A DNA stretch of 63,191 nt. Source: an uncultured Neokomagataea sp. (GTDB taxonomy: Bacteria > Pseudomonadota > Alphaproteobacteria > Acetobacterales > Acetobacteraceae). Below the pieces are notes generated by a model, which saw nothing but the letters and a program-made list of their open reading frames with translations, did no database searches and had not been told where the DNA came from. Positions 2,753 to 20,657 of the stretch are shown here, one piece after another. The stretch is taken from the NCBI RefSeq assembly GCF_946476835.1, contig NZ_CAMKWA010000013.1, forward strand, positions 1 through 63,191. Direction: 5' to 3'. The first letter of the stretch is position 1, and every line of letters starts with the position of its first letter. Position numbers and translations under genes: made by a program.

Positions 2753-3327
2753 ATATTATTCTTCTTGGCCCTCCGGGTGCCGGTAAAGGGACGCAGGCGA
2801 AGCGTCTTGAGCAGAAATATGGCTTAAAGCAGATCTCTACTGGGGATATGCTGCGTGCTGAGGTGGCTGCGGAAACGACGATTGGTCGTGAAGCAAAAGC
2901 CATTATGGAGAAAGGGCAATTCGTTCCTGATCCGATCATCGTTGAGATGATTCAGAATCGTATTGGCCAAGCTGACTGTGCTCAAGGTTTCATTCTGGAT
3001 GGTTTTCCGCGTACGGAAAGCCAAGCGGAAGCGTTGGATACTATGTTAGCAAAGCGCAATCTGACGATTGATGCAGTTGTTCTTCTGGATGTTTCAGAAG
3101 AACAACTGGTTGAACGTATTGCTGCACGCACGACAGAAGATGGCACGCGTCGTAAAGACGATGAGCCGGAAGTTGTACGTTCTCGTCTGCAAGTTTATCG
3201 CGATCAGACGGCGCCGATTTTGCCGTATTATGAGCGCGAAGGTCGTTTGCGTCGTATCGACGGTATGCAATCCGTTGAGGCTGTTGGTAGCGCTTTGGAT
3301 GCTCTTTTGGGTGAGATTTCACGTTAA
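2749..3327 (+). CDS. adk: Adenylate kinase
   Basis: Cytoplasmic enzyme that interconverts ATP + AMP and 2 ADP. The P-loop GPPGAGKGT is at residues 7-15, followed by the AMP-binding STGDMLR and DGFPRT motifs. At 192 residues it is the short-lid form: the segment around RTTEDGTRRKDDEPE is compact and lacks the zinc-binding cysteines of long-lid enzymes. The start overlaps the secY stop (ATGA), the normal coupling in this operon. After adk there is a 241-base gap that holds a new promoter for the alpha operon. Confidence 0.97.
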   Translation: MNIILLGPPGAGKGTQAKRLEQKYGLKQISTGDMLRAEVAAETTIGREAKAIMEKGQFVPDPIIVEMIQNRIGQADCAQGFILDGFPRTESQAEALDTMLAKRNLTIDAVVLLDVSEEQLVERIAARTTEDGTRRKDDEPEVVRSRLQVYRDQTAPILPYYEREGRLRRIDGMQSVEAVGSALDALLGEISR

Positions 3328-3422: not shown

Positions 3423-3506
3423 GCGCGCCCTCGACATCACTGCGGTTATGGCTTGTGATTCTCCGTTAGAATCGGTGAATCGACAGGTTTGGCGTATAAG
3501 TATGGT

Positions 3507-9708: not shown

Positions 9709-12700
9709 GGGGTTTTATGCTCCCGGTGTGAAGCGAAAGGCAGAAGAGAGAGGGCGCGCTGTGGTAGGGTTTTGACCCATTGGCCGAAGCGCTCCAGAAT
9801 GAGGAAAATAATGGGGGTTGTGTACAGGGTGAGCAGTTGGCTCACCATGAGGCCCCCAAGAATGGCGATGCCGAGTGGGTGGCGGAGCTCGCTGCCATAG
9901 CCGTTACCGAGGATAAGTGGCAGTGCTCCGAGTGCGGCTGCGAGAGATGTCATGAGGATGGGGCGGAAGCGTAGCAGGCTGGCCTCATGAATGGCTTCCA
10001 AGGCGGTTGCGCCTTTGCGTTGTGCCGCCAAGGCGAAATCAATCAGCATGATGGCATTTTTCTTCACGATACCGATCAGAAGGATCACGCCGATCATGGC
10101 CATGAGAGAGAAGTCTTCTCCGGCGATGCGCAGCGCGAGGAGCGCGCCGACCCCTGCTGAAGGCAGAGTGGAGAGAATGGTGAGCGGATGGATGAGGCTC
10201 TCATACAGAACGCCCAGCACGATATAGACAGCCGCTAAAGCTGCAAGAATGAGCAGGGGTTCATCGCTGGTGGATTTCTGAAAAGCGGCGGCATTTCCAG
10301 CAAAGCCGCCTTGGATGGTGGGGGGCACACGCAGTTCAGTCATCGCGGCCTGAATAGCGGTGACTGTTGGGCCGAGTGCTGCGCCGGGGGCCAGATTGAA
10401 TGAGACGGTGACGGCAACGGATTGGCCATCATGATTGATGGTAAGTGCGGTGTTGGTCAGACGCTGGCGCGCAACGTCTGAGAGGGGGACCATCGTTTCC
10501 GCATTTGTGGTTACGGCAGCGCCGGAGGAGGCGCTGCGTCCGCCAGCGAGGGCATTTGCCTGTGAGTTTAGGTAAGAGCGCTCACTTTGGGACAGAGTAG
10601 TGGAAGAGCCGTACCGTACGCGGATATTGTTGGATGATACGCCCCCAGCAGCAGTACCGCCTGAGATGCTGACCCACATTTGGTTCAGCATGGTGGGGGA
10701 GGTGGTGTATTCTGGAGCCACTCCCATGACGACGCGGTATTGATTGAGGTTTTTATACATGATGGATGCCGCCCGTTGGCCGAATGCATCATATAGGGCG
10801 TTGGAAATAAGCTGTGGGGTGATGCCGTAACGGGATTCTGTATCACGAGCGAGGGAGAGGGCAATGGCCTGCCCTCCTTGTTCGGCATCAGACGAGACAT
10901 CCATGATGGATGGGATGTGTGACAGGGCTTCGGTGATGCGTGGCGTCCAAGCGAAAAGCTCCTCGGCATCAGCAGATTTGAGCGTGTATTGATAGGCCCC
11001 GTCACCGCTGCGAGCACCGACGCGGACGCCTCCGGCGGACATCAGGCGGAGTTGTGCGCCTGCGTGGTGGCCGAAATGCTGCGTGATACGTGCGGTCATT
11101 TCAGCGATAGAATCTGAGCGCTCTTCTTTGGGTTTGAGACCTATGAAGACGTTCGCTGAGTTTGATGAACGACCACCGACACCGCCGATAACTCCTGCAA
11201 CGTCTGGGTCCGCAGCGATGCTGTGCATGGCGCGGGCAGTAGTAGCCTGTAAGGCATGAAACGAGATGGATTGATCCGCCACGACACGGCCCATGACTTG
11301 TCCGGTATCTTCCGCAGGAAAGAAACCTTTGGGCATGCGGATGAATAAGGCGCAGGCGAGCAGAATAGTTGCGGGGAGTGACAGTGCAACGATACGGCGG
11401 TGTTGTAAGCACCATCCCAAAGAGGCGGCATAGCCTGCAGTGATCGCGTTGAGGGTTGTTTCTAAAGCGCGGTCTATAGCGGCAAGCGGGCCGGATTTTT
11501 GCTCATGCGTATGTTGTTTGAGAACAAGTGCGCTGAGCATGGGCGTTAGGGTGAGGGAGAGAATCAGTGAGATGGCCAGTGTGACCACCATGGTCATGGC
11601 AAACTCATGAAAGAGGCGGCCTGCAATGCCTTCCATTAAGAAAATGGGTGCAAAGACAACAATCAGAGATGCTGTGATGGACAGGACCGTGAAGGCAACC
11701 TCACTGGCACCTAATATGGCAGCTTTGGTGCGTGAGTGGCCCATCTCAATATAACGCGCGATATTCTCTAGAACGACGATGGCGTCATCCACGACAAAGC
11801 CTGTGGCGATGGTAAGCGCCATGAGCGACATATTATCGAGTTGGTAGTGCAGCAGCAGCATAGCGCCGAAAGTGCCGATAATAGAGACTGGCACGACAAT
11901 GGCAGGGATGAGAATGGCGGATGCGCTACGGAGAAAGAGCAGGACGACGCCAATCACGAGAATGACAGCGATGATGAGGGTTTGCTGCGTTTCGTTCAGG
12001 GATGCGCGGATGGTTTTGGAGCGGTCAATGACGGGGTGGAGCTCTGTGTCACCGGGGAGGGTGGCGCGGATGGCAGCCAAGCGCTGGTTAATACTGTCCA
12101 CGGTGTGAATGACGTTGGCGCCGCCTTGAGCAAAGACGGTGCAGATAATAGCGCGTTGGCCGTTGAAAAAGCCTGCTTGTCGGATGTCTTCAACGCTGTC
12201 TGTCACGGTTGAGACATCGGACAGGCGTACGGGTAAGGCATTACGGTAGGCGACAATTAGGTTTTGGTATTCAGCCGCTTTTGTTGCTTGGTCATTGGTC
12301 GCGAGGGTGAGGCGCTGCCCGTGTGTGTCAATGAAGCCTTTGGGTGTATGGGCGTTGGCGGAGGCAAGGGCTGCCCGAATATCTTCGAAGCCAATACCGT
12401 AGTGAAAGAGCTGGAATGGGCTGAGGTCCACACGAACGGCGGGAAGTGCGCTGCCGCGGATATCAACTTCCCCGACGCCATCCACTTGGCTCAGTTGTTG
12501 GACCAGAACGTTACTGGCGTAATCGTACAAGGCTTCGGGGGTATGTGTGGTGGAGGTCAGGGCAAAGGCCATGACGGGTGGGCCGTTGGAGTTGGCCTTA
12601 TTGTAAGAGGGGTTGCTGCGGAGTGTTGTGGGGAGGTCTTGGCGCGCACCTTGCAAAGCAGATGCGACATCACGTGCCGCGCCGTTAATATCCCGCGAGA

Positions 12701-12989
12701 GATCAAATTGGAGGGTGACGCGGGTTTGGTTCACCATGGATTGAGACGTCATCTCGGTAACGCCAGAAATGGCACCGAGGTGACGCTCTAGTGGCGCGGC
12801 CACAGTGCTGGCAATCTCTGAGGGAGAACCGCCGGGTTGAGAGGCGGTTACCACAATGACGGGGAAATCCACATTCGGGAGGTCGGCAACCGGGAGGTTG
12901 AGATACCCCAATACCCCCCCGATCAGGATGGCGAGTGCCAGCAATGTGGTGCCGATTGGCCTAGAAACGAAGAGGTGGATAAAGCGCAC
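9705..12989 (-). CDS. mdtC: RND efflux pump permease, MdtC-like
   Basis: Inner-membrane proton-driven drug exporter of the HAE-1 RND family, 1094 residues. It starts MRFIHLFVSRPIGTTLLALA, the usual first helix, and shows ATGFVVDDAIVVLENIARY near residue 400 (helix 4 with the paired aspartates of the proton relay), PKGFFPAEDTG, and GIVKKNAIMLIDFAL near residue 980. A Ser/Gly-rich insertion (around GGTAAGGVSSNN) lengthens the second porter domain. It begins two bases after the preceding permease. By analogy with MdtB-MdtC, the two would form a heterotrimer. Confidence 0.9.
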   Translation of the reverse strand: MRFIHLFVSRPIGTTLLALAILIGGVLGYLNLPVADLPNVDFPVIVVTASQPGGSPSEIASTVAAPLERHLGAISGVTEMTSQSMVNQTRVTLQFDLSRDINGAARDVASALQGARQDLPTTLRSNPSYNKANSNGPPVMAFALTSTTHTPEALYDYASNVLVQQLSQVDGVGEVDIRGSALPAVRVDLSPFQLFHYGIGFEDIRAALASANAHTPKGFIDTHGQRLTLATNDQATKAAEYQNLIVAYRNALPVRLSDVSTVTDSVEDIRQAGFFNGQRAIICTVFAQGGANVIHTVDSINQRLAAIRATLPGDTELHPVIDRSKTIRASLNETQQTLIIAVILVIGVVLLFLRSASAILIPAIVVPVSIIGTFGAMLLLHYQLDNMSLMALTIATGFVVDDAIVVLENIARYIEMGHSRTKAAILGASEVAFTVLSITASLIVVFAPIFLMEGIAGRLFHEFAMTMVVTLAISLILSLTLTPMLSALVLKQHTHEQKSGPLAAIDRALETTLNAITAGYAASLGWCLQHRRIVALSLPATILLACALFIRMPKGFFPAEDTGQVMGRVVADQSISFHALQATTARAMHSIAADPDVAGVIGGVGGRSSNSANVFIGLKPKEERSDSIAEMTARITQHFGHHAGAQLRLMSAGGVRVGARSGDGAYQYTLKSADAEELFAWTPRITEALSHIPSIMDVSSDAEQGGQAIALSLARDTESRYGITPQLISNALYDAFGQRAASIMYKNLNQYRVVMGVAPEYTTSPTMLNQMWVSISGGTAAGGVSSNNIRVRYGSSTTLSQSERSYLNSQANALAGGRSASSGAAVTTNAETMVPLSDVARQRLTNTALTINHDGQSVAVTVSFNLAPGAALGPTVTAIQAAMTELRVPPTIQGGFAGNAAAFQKSTSDEPLLILAALAAVYIVLGVLYESLIHPLTILSTLPSAGVGALLALRIAGEDFSLMAMIGVILLIGIVKKNAIMLIDFALAAQRKGATALEAIHEASLLRFRPILMTSLAAALGALPLILGNGYGSELRHPLGIAILGGLMVSQLLTLYTTPIIFLILERFGQWVKTLPQRALSLLPFASHREHKTP

Positions 12990-12991
12990 GG

Positions 12992-15900
12992 TTATGCCTG
13001 ATGCGGTGCTGGTGGGCGGTCATGGTGTTGTTCTTTGGTGAAAGCTGCGCTGACGCGGCGGCCGATCTTATCCATGAACAGGTAAATGACGGGTGTTGTG
13101 AACAGCGTCAGGAGTTGTGAGAGCATCAAGCCGCACACAATGGTGACGCCCAAGGGCTGCCGCAGTTCGGAGCCGACGCCGCTGCCGAACATGAGGGGCA
13201 AGGCTCCGAAGAGTGCGGCCAATGTGGTCATGAGGATGGGGCGGAAACGTAAGAGGGCGGCGCGACGGATGGCCTCAAGGGGGGAGCTCCCGTCAGTGCG
13301 CTCGGCTTCAAGGGCGAAGTCGATCATCATGATCGCGTTTTTCTTCACGATACCGATGAGCAGGACGATGCCGATAATACCCATGACGTCGAGTGGCATG
13401 CCGAAGAGTTCCAGCCCGACCAGCGCGCCGATGGCTGCGGATGGTAGGGTGGAGAGAATGGTGATCGGGTGGATGAAGCTCTCATAGAGAATACCCAGCA
13501 CGATATAGACAGCGACTAATGCTGCCAGAACGAGCCAGACTTCATTGCCCAGAGAGTTTTGGAAAGCTGCGGCTGTTCCTTGGAAAGTGGTTTGGAAAGC
13601 CGGTGGCAGGTTGAGGTTGGCGCGTACGCGGTCAATGGCGGTGGTTGCTTCGCCCAAGGAGTGCCCTGCGGCCACGTTGAACGAGACAGTTGTGGAGGGG
13701 AACTGCCCATAATGGCTGATGAGCAACGGCATGAACTTATGTGTGACCGTTACCACTTGATTGAGGGGCACCAAGCCTGCGGTTGGTGCGCGTGTTGGGC
13801 CGGAGGTGCTGCCGCCCGCTTCTGAGGAAATACCGGGTAGGTAGAGGCGGTTGAGGGAGTTGATATCGGTTTGGAGGGCGGGGTCTGCCTCTAGGATTAC
13901 GCGGTACTGGTTGGATTGCGTGTAGATCGTGCTGATTTGGCGTTGGCCGTAGCTGTCATAGAGCAGGTTATCCACCGTTTGTGGTGTGATGGAGTAACGC
14001 GCGCCTGTTGTACGGTCGAGCGTGACTTCAGCCGTGAGGCCTTCGGCCTGCAGATCTGACGTGACGTCTGCAAGAGCAGGCTCTTTTTGGAGGGCTGTAA
14101 TGAATTTGGGGACCCATATTTGGAAGGTATCGTAATCGGGGTTTTCTAGAATGAACTGGTACTGGGTTGCCGATACAGAGGTATCTAAAGACAGGTCTTG
14201 AATGGGCTGTGTGTACAGGCGGGCACCAGCAACTTGGCGGCCTTTATCACTGAGGCGGTCAAGAATGGTTTGTAAGCTGGAGCTGCGCTGTTCTCGTGGT
14301 TTGAGGTTGATAAGGAAGCGCCCGACATTGAGCGTCATGTTTTGCCCATCGATACCGACGAATGACGAAATGCTGGCAACGTCTGGGTCCGTGAGGATGA
14401 TACGCCCCAACTCCGCCTGACGCTCTTTCATACCGTCAAAAGAGATGGTTTGGGGCATGACGGAAATGCCCTGCACCACGCCAGTATCTTGGGTGGGGAA
14501 GAAGCCTTTGGGGATGTTCATAGCCAGAACGGCCGTGAGGATAATCGTGCCCAAAGTGGCCAGAAGGGTGAGACCGCGGAAGCGCAGGACGACATCCAGC
14601 CAGCGGCCATAACCACGGATGAGTGCGTTGATGCTGCGTTCCGTTGTGTCAGATAGGCGCCCCCAGATTCCTTTATTGTGAGAGGGGGCATGTGTGTCTG
14701 TGAGGATACGGGCGCACATCATCGGGACGAGGGTAATGGAGACAACGGCGGAGATGGCGATGGTGATGGACAAGGTCATGGCGAATTCATGGAACAAACG
14801 CCCGACCACATCTTGCATGAAGAGCAGAGGGATCAGCACTGCAATGAGGGAGACGGTGAGGGAGATAATAGTAAAGCCAATTTCTCCCGCGCCTTTGATG
14901 GCGGCTGTGTAGCGGTCTTCGCCTTCTTCTACGTAACGGGCAATGTTTTCAATGACGACAATGGCGTCATCCACGACGAAGCCTGTCGCGATGGTGAGCG
15001 ACATGAGCGAGAGGTTATCCAGCGAGAAGCCGAGCAGATACATGGCAGCTAAGGTGCCGACCAATGATAACGGTACGGACAGGCTGGGGATGATGGTGGC
15101 GGGGATATTCCGCAAGAAAATAAAAATCACACCAACGACCAGCACCATGGCGAGGCCAAGTTCCACCTCAACATCCGAGACAGAGGCGCGGATGGTGGTG
15201 GTGCGGTTGGTGAGTGGGGTAATGTCGATCCCCGGTGGGAGATCACGTTTGAGCTGCGGCAGCACGCGCAACACATTATCGACGACGGAAATAACGTTGG
15301 CGCCGGGCTGACGTTGAATGTTCAGCACGAGGGCTGGATTGCGGTTTGACCAGGCGGCGAGTTGAGTGTTTTCAGCGCCTTCGACGACTTTGGCGACGTC
15401 CCGCAGGCGGATGGGGCCGTTATTTTGATAGGCGATGACTTGGTCCATAAGTTGTTGGACCGAAGAAATTTGGCCATCAATGCGGAGTGTTGTGGCCCGT
15501 TTGGGGCCGTCAAACGTACCGGTTGGTGAGTTGATGTTAACGGTGCCGATAATGGTTCGTAGGGTATCAATAGCGATACCATAGGAAGTCAGTTTCGGGA
15601 TGTTGACCTGAACACGATAGGCCTTGCGGTTGCCGCCAGAAAGGCTCACGAGGCCGACGCCGGAAATCTGGCTTATTTTTTGCTCGAGGCGTGTGTTGAC
15701 GTAATCTTCAACCTCGGGGAGAGGCAGGACTTTGGATGTAATGCCTAAGGTGAGAACGGGTGTGTCTGCCGGGTTTACCTTCGCGTAGATAGGCGGGGCT
15801 GGCAGGTCAGACGGCAGAAGAGACTGAGCATTATTGATGGCCGCTTGGACCTCTTGCTCAGCAACATCCATGGCCATGTCGAGGCCGAAGCGTAGTGTGA

Positions 15901-16171
15901 CGACAGATGCCCCCCCTGAGGATTGGGAGGACATTTGTTGCAGCCCGGACATTTCGCCCAACTGCGTTTCCAGCGGTGCGGTGACCGAGGTGGCCATGAC
16001 GTCTGGGCCTGCACCGGGATAGAAGGTCGAGACCGTAATTGTCGGGTACTCGACCTGCGGCAAGGCCGAGACCGGGAGGAAATGGAAACCGAGCAGGCCG
16101 CTCAGCAGAATGGCGAACATCAGGAGGCTAGTAGCCACCGGACGTTCGATGAACAGGCGGGACGGGTTCAC
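12992..16171 (-). CDS. mdtB: RND efflux pump permease, MdtB-like
   Basis: First of two tandem RND permeases, 1059 residues. Starts MNPSRLFIERPVATSLLMFA with a typical helix 1. It has ATGFVVDDAIVVIENIARYVE near residue 400, FLRNIPATIIPSLSVPLSL, PKGFFPTQDTGVVQG, and GIVKKNAIMMIDFALEAER near 970. Adjacent paralogous permeases behind one adaptor gene are the hallmark of MdtABC-type systems, which in enterobacteria export bile salts, novobiocin and similar compounds; the substrate here is not known. The adaptor gene ends 39 bases upstream. Confidence 0.9.
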   Translation of the reverse strand: MNPSRLFIERPVATSLLMFAILLSGLLGFHFLPVSALPQVEYPTITVSTFYPGAGPDVMATSVTAPLETQLGEMSGLQQMSSQSSGGASVVTLRFGLDMAMDVAEQEVQAAINNAQSLLPSDLPAPPIYAKVNPADTPVLTLGITSKVLPLPEVEDYVNTRLEQKISQISGVGLVSLSGGNRKAYRVQVNIPKLTSYGIAIDTLRTIIGTVNINSPTGTFDGPKRATTLRIDGQISSVQQLMDQVIAYQNNGPIRLRDVAKVVEGAENTQLAAWSNRNPALVLNIQRQPGANVISVVDNVLRVLPQLKRDLPPGIDITPLTNRTTTIRASVSDVEVELGLAMVLVVGVIFIFLRNIPATIIPSLSVPLSLVGTLAAMYLLGFSLDNLSLMSLTIATGFVVDDAIVVIENIARYVEEGEDRYTAAIKGAGEIGFTIISLTVSLIAVLIPLLFMQDVVGRLFHEFAMTLSITIAISAVVSITLVPMMCARILTDTHAPSHNKGIWGRLSDTTERSINALIRGYGRWLDVVLRFRGLTLLATLGTIILTAVLAMNIPKGFFPTQDTGVVQGISVMPQTISFDGMKERQAELGRIILTDPDVASISSFVGIDGQNMTLNVGRFLINLKPREQRSSSLQTILDRLSDKGRQVAGARLYTQPIQDLSLDTSVSATQYQFILENPDYDTFQIWVPKFITALQKEPALADVTSDLQAEGLTAEVTLDRTTGARYSITPQTVDNLLYDSYGQRQISTIYTQSNQYRVILEADPALQTDINSLNRLYLPGISSEAGGSTSGPTRAPTAGLVPLNQVVTVTHKFMPLLISHYGQFPSTTVSFNVAAGHSLGEATTAIDRVRANLNLPPAFQTTFQGTAAAFQNSLGNEVWLVLAALVAVYIVLGILYESFIHPITILSTLPSAAIGALVGLELFGMPLDVMGIIGIVLLIGIVKKNAIMMIDFALEAERTDGSSPLEAIRRAALLRFRPILMTTLAALFGALPLMFGSGVGSELRQPLGVTIVCGLMLSQLLTLFTTPVIYLFMDKIGRRVSAAFTKEQHHDRPPAPHQA

Positions 16172-18147: not shown

Positions 18148-18783
18148 GTGAAGTGGTATTACGCATTTGAAGGGCAGCAAGTCGGCCCGATAACAACAGA
18201 ACAACTTAAATATTTGGCTGCGTCTGGTACGATTACACCGGAGACGTTGGTGTGGCGGCAAGGTTTCGGGGAGCAGTGGCGCCCTGCGGCTCAAGCGGGC
18301 ATTATTTTTGCGCCGAACCTAGGTCCCGCTGTGGCGAAAAAATCGGTTCAAGAAACATGGGCATGGGCTTTTGTGATGGTGCCGTGGCTCTTGAACCAAG
18401 GCTTTCTGATCATCTCGACCTGGCAGCATTGGACGCCTGTGCAAGAGGTGAAGGCCGCTTTGCCATTAATGCTTATTATCATTGCGGCGTCGGTCATGAC
18501 GTTTATGGCGGACCGGACGGCTTTGCGTGTAGGTGGTTATCAGCCGCCAAGTGGGTGGTGGTGGCTTTTCCCGCCCGGTTACTGTTGGGCGCGTTGGCGT
18601 GTGGTGGGGCGCGGTAAGGCTTTATTGGCAGTTTGTATTTTGGCTTTTTTGGTGAGCTTTGGGGTTGGCCTGGAGCGTACCGCCAACAATCCAGCGTATA
18701 TGAATGCCTCACACTCTGCTGTTACGCATTCGGCACCGGATCAGAGCGGTACGGCGGAGGGGGATGATCAAGAAAACCTCTAA
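18148..18783 (+). CDS. GYF_2 (DUF4339) domain membrane protein
   Basis: Protein of 211 residues, function unknown. The N-terminus (KWYYAFEGQQVGPITTEQLK, then ASGTITPETLVWRQGFGEQWRPA) is a GYF_2 domain, a putative proline-rich-peptide binder. About four hydrophobic helices follow (around residues 78-95, 105-123, 145-155 and 162-180), with an unusual WWWLFPPGYCWARWR segment. The C-terminal tail is soluble and acidic. GTG 18148 is chosen because the domain begins directly after it and GGGAGG is eight bases upstream; both lie within a terminator hairpin, so the mRNA form matters for translation. Confidence 0.75.
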   Translation: MKWYYAFEGQQVGPITTEQLKYLAASGTITPETLVWRQGFGEQWRPAAQAGIIFAPNLGPAVAKKSVQETWAWAFVMVPWLLNQGFLIISTWQHWTPVQEVKAALPLMLIIIAASVMTFMADRTALRVGGYQPPSGWWWLFPPGYCWARWRVVGRGKALLAVCILAFLVSFGVGLERTANNPAYMNASHSAVTHSAPDQSGTAEGDDQENL

Positions 18784-18791
18784 GGAGGTGT

Positions 18792-18883
18792 GATTCAAAA
18801 ACCCTTGACTCATTAAAAAATTACCGAAAACGAAAATTTCACTTCCCTTTCGATTCGGCATGATTCAAAACGATTCTCGATTC
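18792..18883. promoter_or_regulatory. GANTC-dense promoter region of rnhB-ccrM
   Basis: Six GANTC sites lie within 92 bases: GATTC at 18792, GACTC at 18807, and GATTC at 18852, 18862, 18872 and 18879. About 0.4 would be expected by chance. The GACTC overlaps a -35-like TTGACT (18805-18810); no convincing -10 was found 16-18 bases later. GANTC is the target of CcrM, encoded by the second gene downstream, so methylation-dependent self-control is a natural inference. Confidence 0.7.
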
Positions 18884-18915
18884 GCACGTATTTGATGAAG
18901 GGGCGGGAAACGAGA

Positions 18916-19563
18916 ATGCCGGATTATTTGCTAGAAGCAGCCCATGGAGGCGTCGTCGCGGGTGTTGACGAAGTCGGCCGTGGGCCTTTGGCGGGTCCGG
19001 TTGTTGCTGCCGCTGTTATTTTTCGGGGAACGCCACCCGAAGCGCTGTGTGAGCTTTTGGATGATTCCAAGAAGCTGACAGCGCGCCGTCGTGATGCTGC
19101 GTATGCCGCTCTGTGCCGTTCACCTGAGGTGACGTACGGGATCGGTGCAGCGTCTGTGACGGAAATCGAAAACATCAATATTTCTAAAGCCTGTCATCTG
19201 GCGATGCGGCGTGCGGTGGAGCGCTTAGGGCGCTTGCCGGACCTGGCATTGGTGGATGGTAAGCACGCGCCAGACATGCCTTGCCCCGTGAAAATGGTTG
19301 TGGGGGGGGATGGTATCAGCTTGTCAATTGCGGCTGCGTCTATTGTGGCGAAGGTTGTACGGGATCGGCTGATGGTGCGTTTGGCGGATCGCTACAGCGT
19401 CTATGGCTGGGAGCGTAACGCAGGCTACGGCACTGTGGTCCATAAAGCCGGATTAAGAGATTACGGCGTGACACCGCATCATCGGCGGGGCTTCGCGCCA
19501 ATACGGGCCATGGTGGAGGCCTCACACATGATTTCAGGTAAAGCAGGGGAAGTCGCAGCATGA
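18916..19563 (+). CDS. rnhB: Ribonuclease HII
   Basis: Cuts the RNA strand of RNA-DNA hybrids and starts removal of single ribonucleotides from DNA. The 215-residue protein has [20 protein letters not shown] with catalytic Asp18-Glu19, [21 protein letters not shown] and the C-terminal HHRRGFAP. The ATG at 18916 is preferred over one at 18895 because GGGGCGGGAAA lies upstream and the conserved region begins soon after. It overlaps ccrM by four bases (ATGA). A second, type I RNase H is encoded at 62.4 kb. Confidence 0.95.
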
Positions 19564-20657
19564 ACAAGAGCCCAGAAGGACGTCCTGTGGATGAAATTAT
19601 CCGTGGCGAGTGCGTTGAAACAATGCGCGGCTTGGCAGATGGCAGTGTGGACTGCGTGTTTGCTGACCCTCCGTATAACCTGCAATTACGTGGTGAGCTG
19701 CGCCGCCCGGATGAAACCGTGGTGGATGGGGTTGATGATGCTTGGGACAAGTTCTCAGATTATGAGGCCTATGATCACTTCACGCGGGAATGGCTGAGTG
19801 AAGCGCGCCGGGTTATGCATAAAGACGGCACGATCTGGGTGATTGGTTCGTATCATAACATTTTCCGCTTGGGCGCGATTTTGCAGGATCTAGGCTTCTG
19901 GATTTTGAACGATATTGTGTGGCGCAAGTCCAACCCGATGCCGAACTTCCGTGGTCGTCGTTTTACCAATGCACATGAGACGCTGATTTGGGCGGCGCGT
20001 AGTCCACAGAGCCGTTATCGCTTTAATTATCAGGCGATGAAGGCGTTGAATGATGATTTGCAGATGCGTTCAGATTGGTATTTGCCGATCTGCACGGGGC
20101 ATGAGCGCTTGAAGAACGAGCATGGCTTGAAACTTCACCCGACGCAAAAGCCGGAAAGCTTGTTGCATCGTGTACTCGTGGCGTCCACGAATTCGGGTGA
20201 TACGGTTTTAGATCCGTTCTGCGGGAGTGGTACGACGCCTGCTGTCGCGAAGCGCCTTGGGCGCCGTTACATCGGTATTGAGCGTCATCCTGATTATGTA
20301 AAAGCCGCGCGTGAGCGCGCTGAACGTGAAGTGCCGTTGGCGTCTGAGCATTTGGCGGTGACGCCCGCGAAGCGCGATATGCCGCGGGTTCCATTTGGTA
20401 GCTTTGTGGAAACGGGTGTGCTGCCAGCGGGGACCGTGCTGCATGATCGTCAGCAGCGTTTAACGGCAACGGTTTCGCCTGATGGAACGCTTGTCTCGGG
20501 TAACCAGCGCGGTTCGATCCATAAGCTAGGTGCCGCCTTGACGGGGGCGCCGTCCTGCAATGGTTGGACGTTCTGGTATTTTGAGCGTGATGGCCAGTGG
20601 GAGCAGTTGGATCTATTGCGTCAAGAAAGTGCGATGCTGCGCGCAGCGGCCGGGTAA
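19560..20657 (+). CDS. ccrM: CcrM-type DNA adenine methyltransferase (GANTC-specific)
   Basis: Cell-cycle methyltransferase of alphaproteobacteria that adds a methyl group to adenine in GANTC. The 365-residue protein is a beta-class enzyme: catalytic DPPY at residues 36-39 precedes the AdoMet motif DPFCGSGTT at 218-226. [20 protein letters not shown] lies in the CcrM target-recognition region. The C-terminal 80 residues ([20 protein letters not shown] to WEQLDLLRQ) form the RAMA-type domain specific to CcrM. It is not part of a restriction system; no endonuclease is adjacent. It is coupled to rnhB and shares the GANTC-rich upstream region. Confidence 0.95.

Follow-up and report, generated by a model that had tools for sequence, protein, structure and literature searches.

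The closest described counterpart of the locus studied here is the ccrM promoter of Caulobacter crescentus. The methyltransferase belongs to the same family, GANTC is reported in the promoter, and an effect of the methylation state on this promoter has been either reported or presumed (PMC2217572, PMC3973325; statements on published work, here and below, refer to excerpts of the papers cited), with ccrM described as “most probably” affected by methylation in one of these papers (PMC3973325). Here we consider six GANTC sites clustered directly upstream of the gene pair rnhB-ccrM in a 63,191-nt contig of an uncultured Neokomagataea sp. (Alphaproteobacteria, Acetobacteraceae; RefSeq assembly GCF_946476835.1, contig NZ_CAMKWA010000013.1), further referred to as the window. 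Comparison with acetic acid bacteria and other Alphaproteobacteria makes it probable that the cluster forms the regulatory core of the promoter of rnhB-ccrM, arranged in such a way that methylation by CcrM would be read at the promoter from which CcrM is expressed. This finding takes the known idea of a methylation-sensitive ccrM further, to a promoter design that is widespread, and is not a new kind of system.

The likeness to Caulobacter has limits. CtrA and SciP motifs are reported there (PMC4287350), whereas a full CtrA box, with at most one mismatch, is present in none of 82 loci from acetic acid bacteria, the window included, and in five of 60 loci from the rest of the class. The TTGAC-N14-GANTC-ANNNT geometry reported below is not described in the excerpts on Caulobacter ccrM, and no description of this design was found in the open-licence literature searched, which does not establish its absence from print. 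GANTC is also found in sigma-70 promoters regulated by GcrA and CcrM (mipZ, podJ, and others), and gcrA is present in the window genome; however, the element of the class persists without detectable GcrA, and sites are more numerous than the one or two at ctrAP1 and mipZ (PMC3667746). Control of a methyltransferase gene by its own target or operator is described for the restriction-modification enzymes CfrBI, LlaDII, and MspI (PMC3874152), while here we observe an array rather than a single site and infer a link to replication. GANTC sites upstream of cell-cycle genes were counted in a 2010 comparison, whose excerpt draws no conclusion on control (PMC2877005), and a 2021 paper counted them at ctrA (PMC8116508).

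GANTC clusters upstream of rnhB and ccrM

The six sites, five GATTC and one GACTC, occupy 92 bases (18792–18883), in agreement with the original prediction, whose estimate of about 0.4 sites by chance is also close to the 0.35 expected in 109 bp from local base composition. Dinucleotide shuffles of this 109-bp stretch contain 0.87 GANTC on average and five at most, the observed six being never reached in 5000 shuffles. Elsewhere GANTC is rare: the whole window has 75 sites compared to 231 expected by composition, and 461 kb of the same genome (the window plus 20 stretches, approximately 19% of 2.44 Mb), 526 compared to 1789, or 29%, the depletion reported throughout the class being at least two-fold. 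The six-site cluster is the densest in the 461-kb sample, where every other separate 92-base stretch contains at most three GANTC.

The downstream genes are indeed rnhB and ccrM, as originally named (Table 1). The window CcrM combines the N6_N4_Mtase domain with the C-terminal RAMA domain, as in the CcrM family, and is 100% identical to the listed CcrM of Neokomagataea anthophila; a ccrM homolog is present in all 26 genomes of the genus. As the start of ccrM overlaps the stop of rnhB, both genes are probably transcribed from a single promoter upstream of rnhB.

Relatives for the regional comparison were obtained through ccrM matches. A first survey comprised 134 loci, several of them representing one genome from two collections; 24 reverse-oriented loci were left out, five were paralogs without rnhB, and the 105 loci counted contain 2 to 9 sites apiece. 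The comparison with related genera that had been proposed as a check shows that the cluster is kept. In 80 acetic acid bacteria (a heavily redundant set, from which 18 lineages were hand-picked as a subset) the 200 bp upstream of rnhB contain on average 4.5 GANTC, compared to 1.2 in shuffled sequence and 0.25 per 200 bp in the rest of the loci, with at least three sites in 78 of them, while the mean upstream of ccrM itself is 0.025. The class sample was formed by 100 of 162 genomes with a ccrM match, taken from the better-scoring part, so that the lowest-scoring, mostly small-genome lineages were left out. Its discovery set consists of 60 loci representing 57 other alphaproteobacterial families, where the mean number of sites in the 200 bp upstream of ccrM is 3.8 (0.94 in shuffled sequence, 0.39 per 200 bp further upstream); 44 loci have at least three sites and 36 exceed their own shuffles at p < 0.05. 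The hold-out set, 39 of 40 further genomes (L242 lies at a contig edge), was taken from the same draw, and most of its genomes share a family, some a genus, with the discovery set; the mean of the hold-out set is 3.62, with at least three sites in 31 loci. Given the class mean and the 7 to 9 sites found in 12 of the 99 class loci, six sites are not exceptional, and the stronger feedback originally deduced from a much denser cluster does not follow.

The cluster probably tracks the likely promoter. Of the 90 class loci where rnhB was placed, 84 have rnhB and ccrM at least 40 nt apart, while such a gap is found in none of the 80 loci of acetic acid bacteria (gene ends were estimated from BLAST and the next stop). 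Thus, the cluster lies upstream of ccrM where a gap exists and upstream of rnhB where the genes adjoin or overlap, that is, it goes with the probable promoter and not with a fixed gene neighbor. Judging from these comparisons of sequences, the cluster is real and conserved, and very probably under selection.

Intact targets and a shared core element

Among all 256 xyNzw motifs, GANTC ranks first in both sets by the ratio of observed to expected counts, with 5.0 in the class (229 sites, 46 expected) and 6.1 in the 18 lineages of acetic acid bacteria (84 sites, 14 expected). The 12 one-mismatch motifs taken together are below expectation, with 412 compared to 559 in the class and 122 compared to 168 in acetic acid bacteria. 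Pooled over all cluster sites of the class, the central base is variable (C at 75 sites, T at 67, A at 45, and G at 42). Among the 14 GANTC letters counted in 20 Gluconobacter promoters, 12 are invariant, compared to 44 of 118 other columns. Moreover, we observe a period near 10.5 bp, that is approximately one DNA turn, in the distances between sites (0.14 vs. a null of –0.03 with standard deviation 0.04; p approximately 0.003 against jittered sites, 13 periods tried). On balance, the pattern looks like selection for intact methyltransferase targets, plus an extra promoter constraint at one site.

In 27 of the 60 discovery loci TTGAC is followed by GANTC at an offset of exactly 19 (N14 between them), with A at +24 and T at +28 in every one of these loci, two letters outside the search requirement, though noticed by eye beforehand in the same set. 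The same arrangement is found in 21 of the 39 hold-out loci, with A and T in place in all 21. The flanking sequence, 303,062 bases with both strands counted, contains no TTGAC-N14-GANTC. The geometry is that of a –35-like box, a 17-nt spacer, and a putative –10 box C-A-n-n-n-T, whose first base is the last base of GANTC. The spacer holds a second GANTC in 41 of the 48 complete elements, and in 39 a GANTC lies 8 to 25 bases upstream of TTGAC; as the two sets have many families in common, these 48 are not independent events. For an Agrobacterium replication-control promoter studied in Caulobacter cells, changing the GANTC that overlaps the predicted –10 box blocked most activity, a loss regarded by its authors as unsurprising for a core promoter position (PMC11514494); hence, changes of a –10 site need careful reading.

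Candidate promoter of rnhB-ccrM in the window

The counterpart of the class element closest to it in the window is TTCCCT-N17-CAAAAC, with sites 3 and 4 within the spacer (Table 1); in Asaia it is TTTACA-N17-CAAAAG. A consensus scan of 18600–19000 found no sigma-70-like promoter. The –35-like TTGACT noted in the original prediction does overlap a GANTC site, but lacks a –10-like hexamer at the proper distance, and a sigma-70 promoter at this box was rejected. Still, it aligns with conserved boxes of relatives, TTGACA in Gluconobacter and CTTGCGC in Acetobacter and Komagataeibacter, and therefore TTGACT is probably functional too. Upstream of rnhB in Acetobacter, Komagataeibacter, and Gluconacetobacter (e.g., L108, L122, L130), the conserved CTTGCGC is followed approximately 17 nt on by a GGTTTTCC-like sequence. 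A leader peptide starting from an ATG in some Acetobacter loci was dropped on sequence inspection, being not common to Gluconobacter and Neokomagataea.

Table 1. Genes, GANTC sites, and candidate promoter boxes of the rnhB-ccrM locus in the window
Feature	Position	Strand	Remarks
GATTC, site 1 (upstream pair)	18792–18796		Same position in two other Neokomagataea loci compared
TTGACT, –35-like box	18805–18810	+	17 nt downstream is AAACGA, not –10-like
GACTC, site 2	18807–18811		Overlaps TTGACT
TTCCCT, weak candidate –35 box	18843–18848	+	Inferred; 17 nt before the candidate –10 box; TTTACA in Asaia and Swaminathania
GATTC, site 3 (mid-spacer)	18852–18856		Central base T, G, C, or A among aligned relatives
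GATTC, site 4 (TGATTCA)	18862–18866		Ends on the first base of the candidate –10 box; central T fixed in aligned relatives
CAAAAC, candidate –10 box	18866–18871	+	Inferred by analogy with the class element TTGAC-N14-GANTC-ANNNT; CAGAAT or CAAAAT in two Bombella-group loci
GATTC, site 5	18872–18876		Immediately downstream of the candidate –10 box
GATTC, site 6	18879–18883		Near the inferred transcription start
rnhB, ribonuclease HII	18916–19563	+	215 aa from a conserved ATG; RNase_HII PF01351, E 1.4e-39
ccrM, GANTC adenine methyltransferase homolog	19560–20657	+	365 aa; N6_N4_Mtase PF01555, E 2e-66; RAMA PF18755, E 4.7e-15

Reading of the cluster and competing explanations

As dense arrays of the enzyme's own target are common to many relatives in the class, ccrM probably senses the marks that its product makes. 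The simplest account fitting all results would be replication-timed autoregulation, with direct reading at the core promoter being general and GcrA serving as an extra reader in some lineages. Passage of the replication fork would leave the promoter sites hemimethylated, which would change access or melting by RNA polymerase, either directly or via a reader such as GcrA where it is present; CcrM would then re-methylate the sites and reset the promoter, and several sites would give a slower and sharper reset than one. By analogy with Caulobacter ccrM, the promoter is likelier to be active when hemimethylated and damped when fully methylated, while activation through methyl-dependent GcrA is possible, above all in acetic acid bacteria. 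Feedback of CcrM through sites in its own promoter, the core of the original prediction, is thus favored by conservation, whereas the original interpretation as a whole is supported in part.

A number of observations weigh against autoregulation through methylated promoter sites. Neither conservation nor the sequence itself shows the regulatory sign of the effect. Distant Acetobacteraceae, kept as a separate group of 20 loci, mostly lack the cluster, with at least three sites upstream of rnhB in four of the 15 loci where rnhB was placed and upstream of ccrM in one of 20; moreover, 0 or 1 site is found in five of the 60 discovery and seven of the 39 hold-out loci. One near-miss motif, GCNTC, exceeds expectation (72 vs. 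55 in the class, 26 vs. 14.5 in acetic acid bacteria). At the –10 site of the 48 class elements the choice of the central base is restricted (35 C, 12 A, one T), so that some of the conservation may reflect constraints on the promoter as such, and three of the four Gluconobacter sites lie within a block conserved as a whole, which makes letter invariance weak evidence alone. The exact element is absent in 51 of the 99 class loci, and in eight of the 48 loci having it the inferred transcription start falls past the assumed ccrM start codon, which was transferred from the Neokomagataea protein and is possibly incorrect in other loci. The exact TTGAC-N14-GANTC-ANNNT is absent from the window as well, and TTGAC at offset 19 is found in none of the 80 loci of acetic acid bacteria; their candidate –10 box mostly lacks the final T, and a GANTC-N3..7-GANTCA pair is present in only 51 of the 80 (GANTCA is missing altogether from the examples of A. 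senegalensis, A. pasteurianus, Novacetimonas, and Komagataeibacter inspected). The core promoter in the window, TTCCCT-N17-CAAAAC by analogy, is therefore weakly placed.

One competing explanation is activation dependent on GcrA, where methylated GANTC recruits GcrA with sigma-70 RNA polymerase, and CcrM activates its own operon in a positive loop. GcrA (PF07750) is present in all 26 genomes of the genus, the window genome among them; it is described as stimulating open complex formation at methylated promoters (PMC7403470), and GANTC between the –10 and –35 boxes goes with one timing class in Caulobacter (PMC4287350). The context reported as preferred by GcrA, YGAKTCG (PMC7987155), is found at 40 of the 84 cluster sites in the 18 lineages of acetic acid bacteria, compared to 21 of 181 background sites, and at two of the six window sites. 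This enrichment suggests that GcrA may be a reader in acetic acid bacteria. In the class sample, however, YGAKTCG is not enriched (52 of 229 cluster sites, 36 of 182 background sites). The GcrA search, run on the same 193 genomes, finds the full element in 9 of 17 genomes without detected GcrA and in 39 of 82 with it, the mean numbers of sites being 4.0 and 3.7; a permissive repeat of the search in these 17 genomes gave nothing over the cut-off, with sub-threshold matches in six (best E 0.023). The element being equally common with and without detected GcrA, the role of GcrA as a general reader is weakened: GcrA may make use of the array, but probably does not explain its presence in general, and we consider the positive loop rather unlikely. 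Nor is the competition with GcrA suggested originally needed in general.

Steric autorepression, with CcrM searching or bound at clustered core-promoter sites and blocking RNA polymerase whatever the mark does, would account for regularly spaced sites at and around the putative –10 box that are independent of GcrA, and there is a published example of a modification enzyme that occupies an operator within its own promoter (PMC3874152). Still, the half-life of CcrM under 10 min in Caulobacter (PMC2217572) argues against long occupancy, the need for intact target sites fits methylation equally well, and the mode of action of CcrM, distributive or processive, is disputed among the titles of the reference lists; this explanation seems unlikely. 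It is quite improbable that GANTC occurs here by coincidence, as part of a motif used by an unrelated protein or by the promoter as such: TGANTCA flanks are enriched in the class (39 of 229 vs. 11 of 182), the central T of site 4 is fixed in aligned relatives, and the –10 site is GACTC or GAATC in 47 of 48 elements, but both the deficit of one-mismatch variants and the variable pooled central base are at odds with such a motif. Chance, or a general enrichment of GANTC between genes, is hardly credible given the enrichment of 5 to 6 fold over composition, conserved across families, and the uniqueness of the six-site cluster in 461 kb.

An explanation by CtrA boxes is mostly rejected on the counts given above, the background in flanks being approximately 0.03 boxes per 300 bp, and no TTAA-N7-TTAAC box with at most one mismatch was found upstream in the window. 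A CtrA-like protein is encoded in the window genome (the best match has 51% identity over residues 1–223 to an approximate query sequence). ChpT of the CckA-ChpT-CtrA relay gives no PF10090 match in this genome, the Caulobacter control being positive, in agreement with reports on this order (PMC2877005, PMC8116508). Of the 17 GcrA-negative genomes, 14 have a ChpT match, 12 of them over the cut-off, so that the CtrA relay could act there; two of the nine that have the full element (G347 and G400) also have no ChpT match.

Tentatively, and with less confidence than in autoregulation at the window promoter, one may propose a class-wide self-reading ccrM switch, in which the CcrM target within the –10 region would act directly on RNA polymerase, needing neither GcrA nor the CtrA relay. 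If so, the circuit of cell-cycle methylation would have the self-reading ccrM promoter as its older and simpler core, with GcrA and CtrA control added in some lineages. What is known about the restriction of CcrM to a part of the cell cycle comes mainly from Caulobacter; should the design proposed here hold, a remark on one species would become a rule for much of the class. A conserved target array in the core promoter of the methyltransferase itself, observed also where GcrA is undetected, makes a specific and cheap test possible.

Several minor observations concern the same genes and motifs. The 400 bp upstream of gcrA in the window genome contain no GANTC. The GcrA model PF07750 scores over the cut-off in Sulfolobus acidocaldarius, an archaeon included as a control. 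Contig 262 of genome G230 (11816–16055) has two full ccrM copies in opposite orientation, approximately 2 kb apart and with equal score, possibly an assembly artifact. In locus L194 of genome G479, GATTC is repeated every 15 bases, seven times, in a tandem repeat resembling GATTCGGGCATCACC that extends into the assumed ccrM start. Finally, the second densest cluster of the window (3457–3481, with GANTC at 3457, 3469, and 3477) sits between an adk-like gene ending at 3327 and an rpsM-like gene starting from 3569, both named by eye from their translations, and on the minus strand it also fits the GANTC-N3..7-GANTCA pair.
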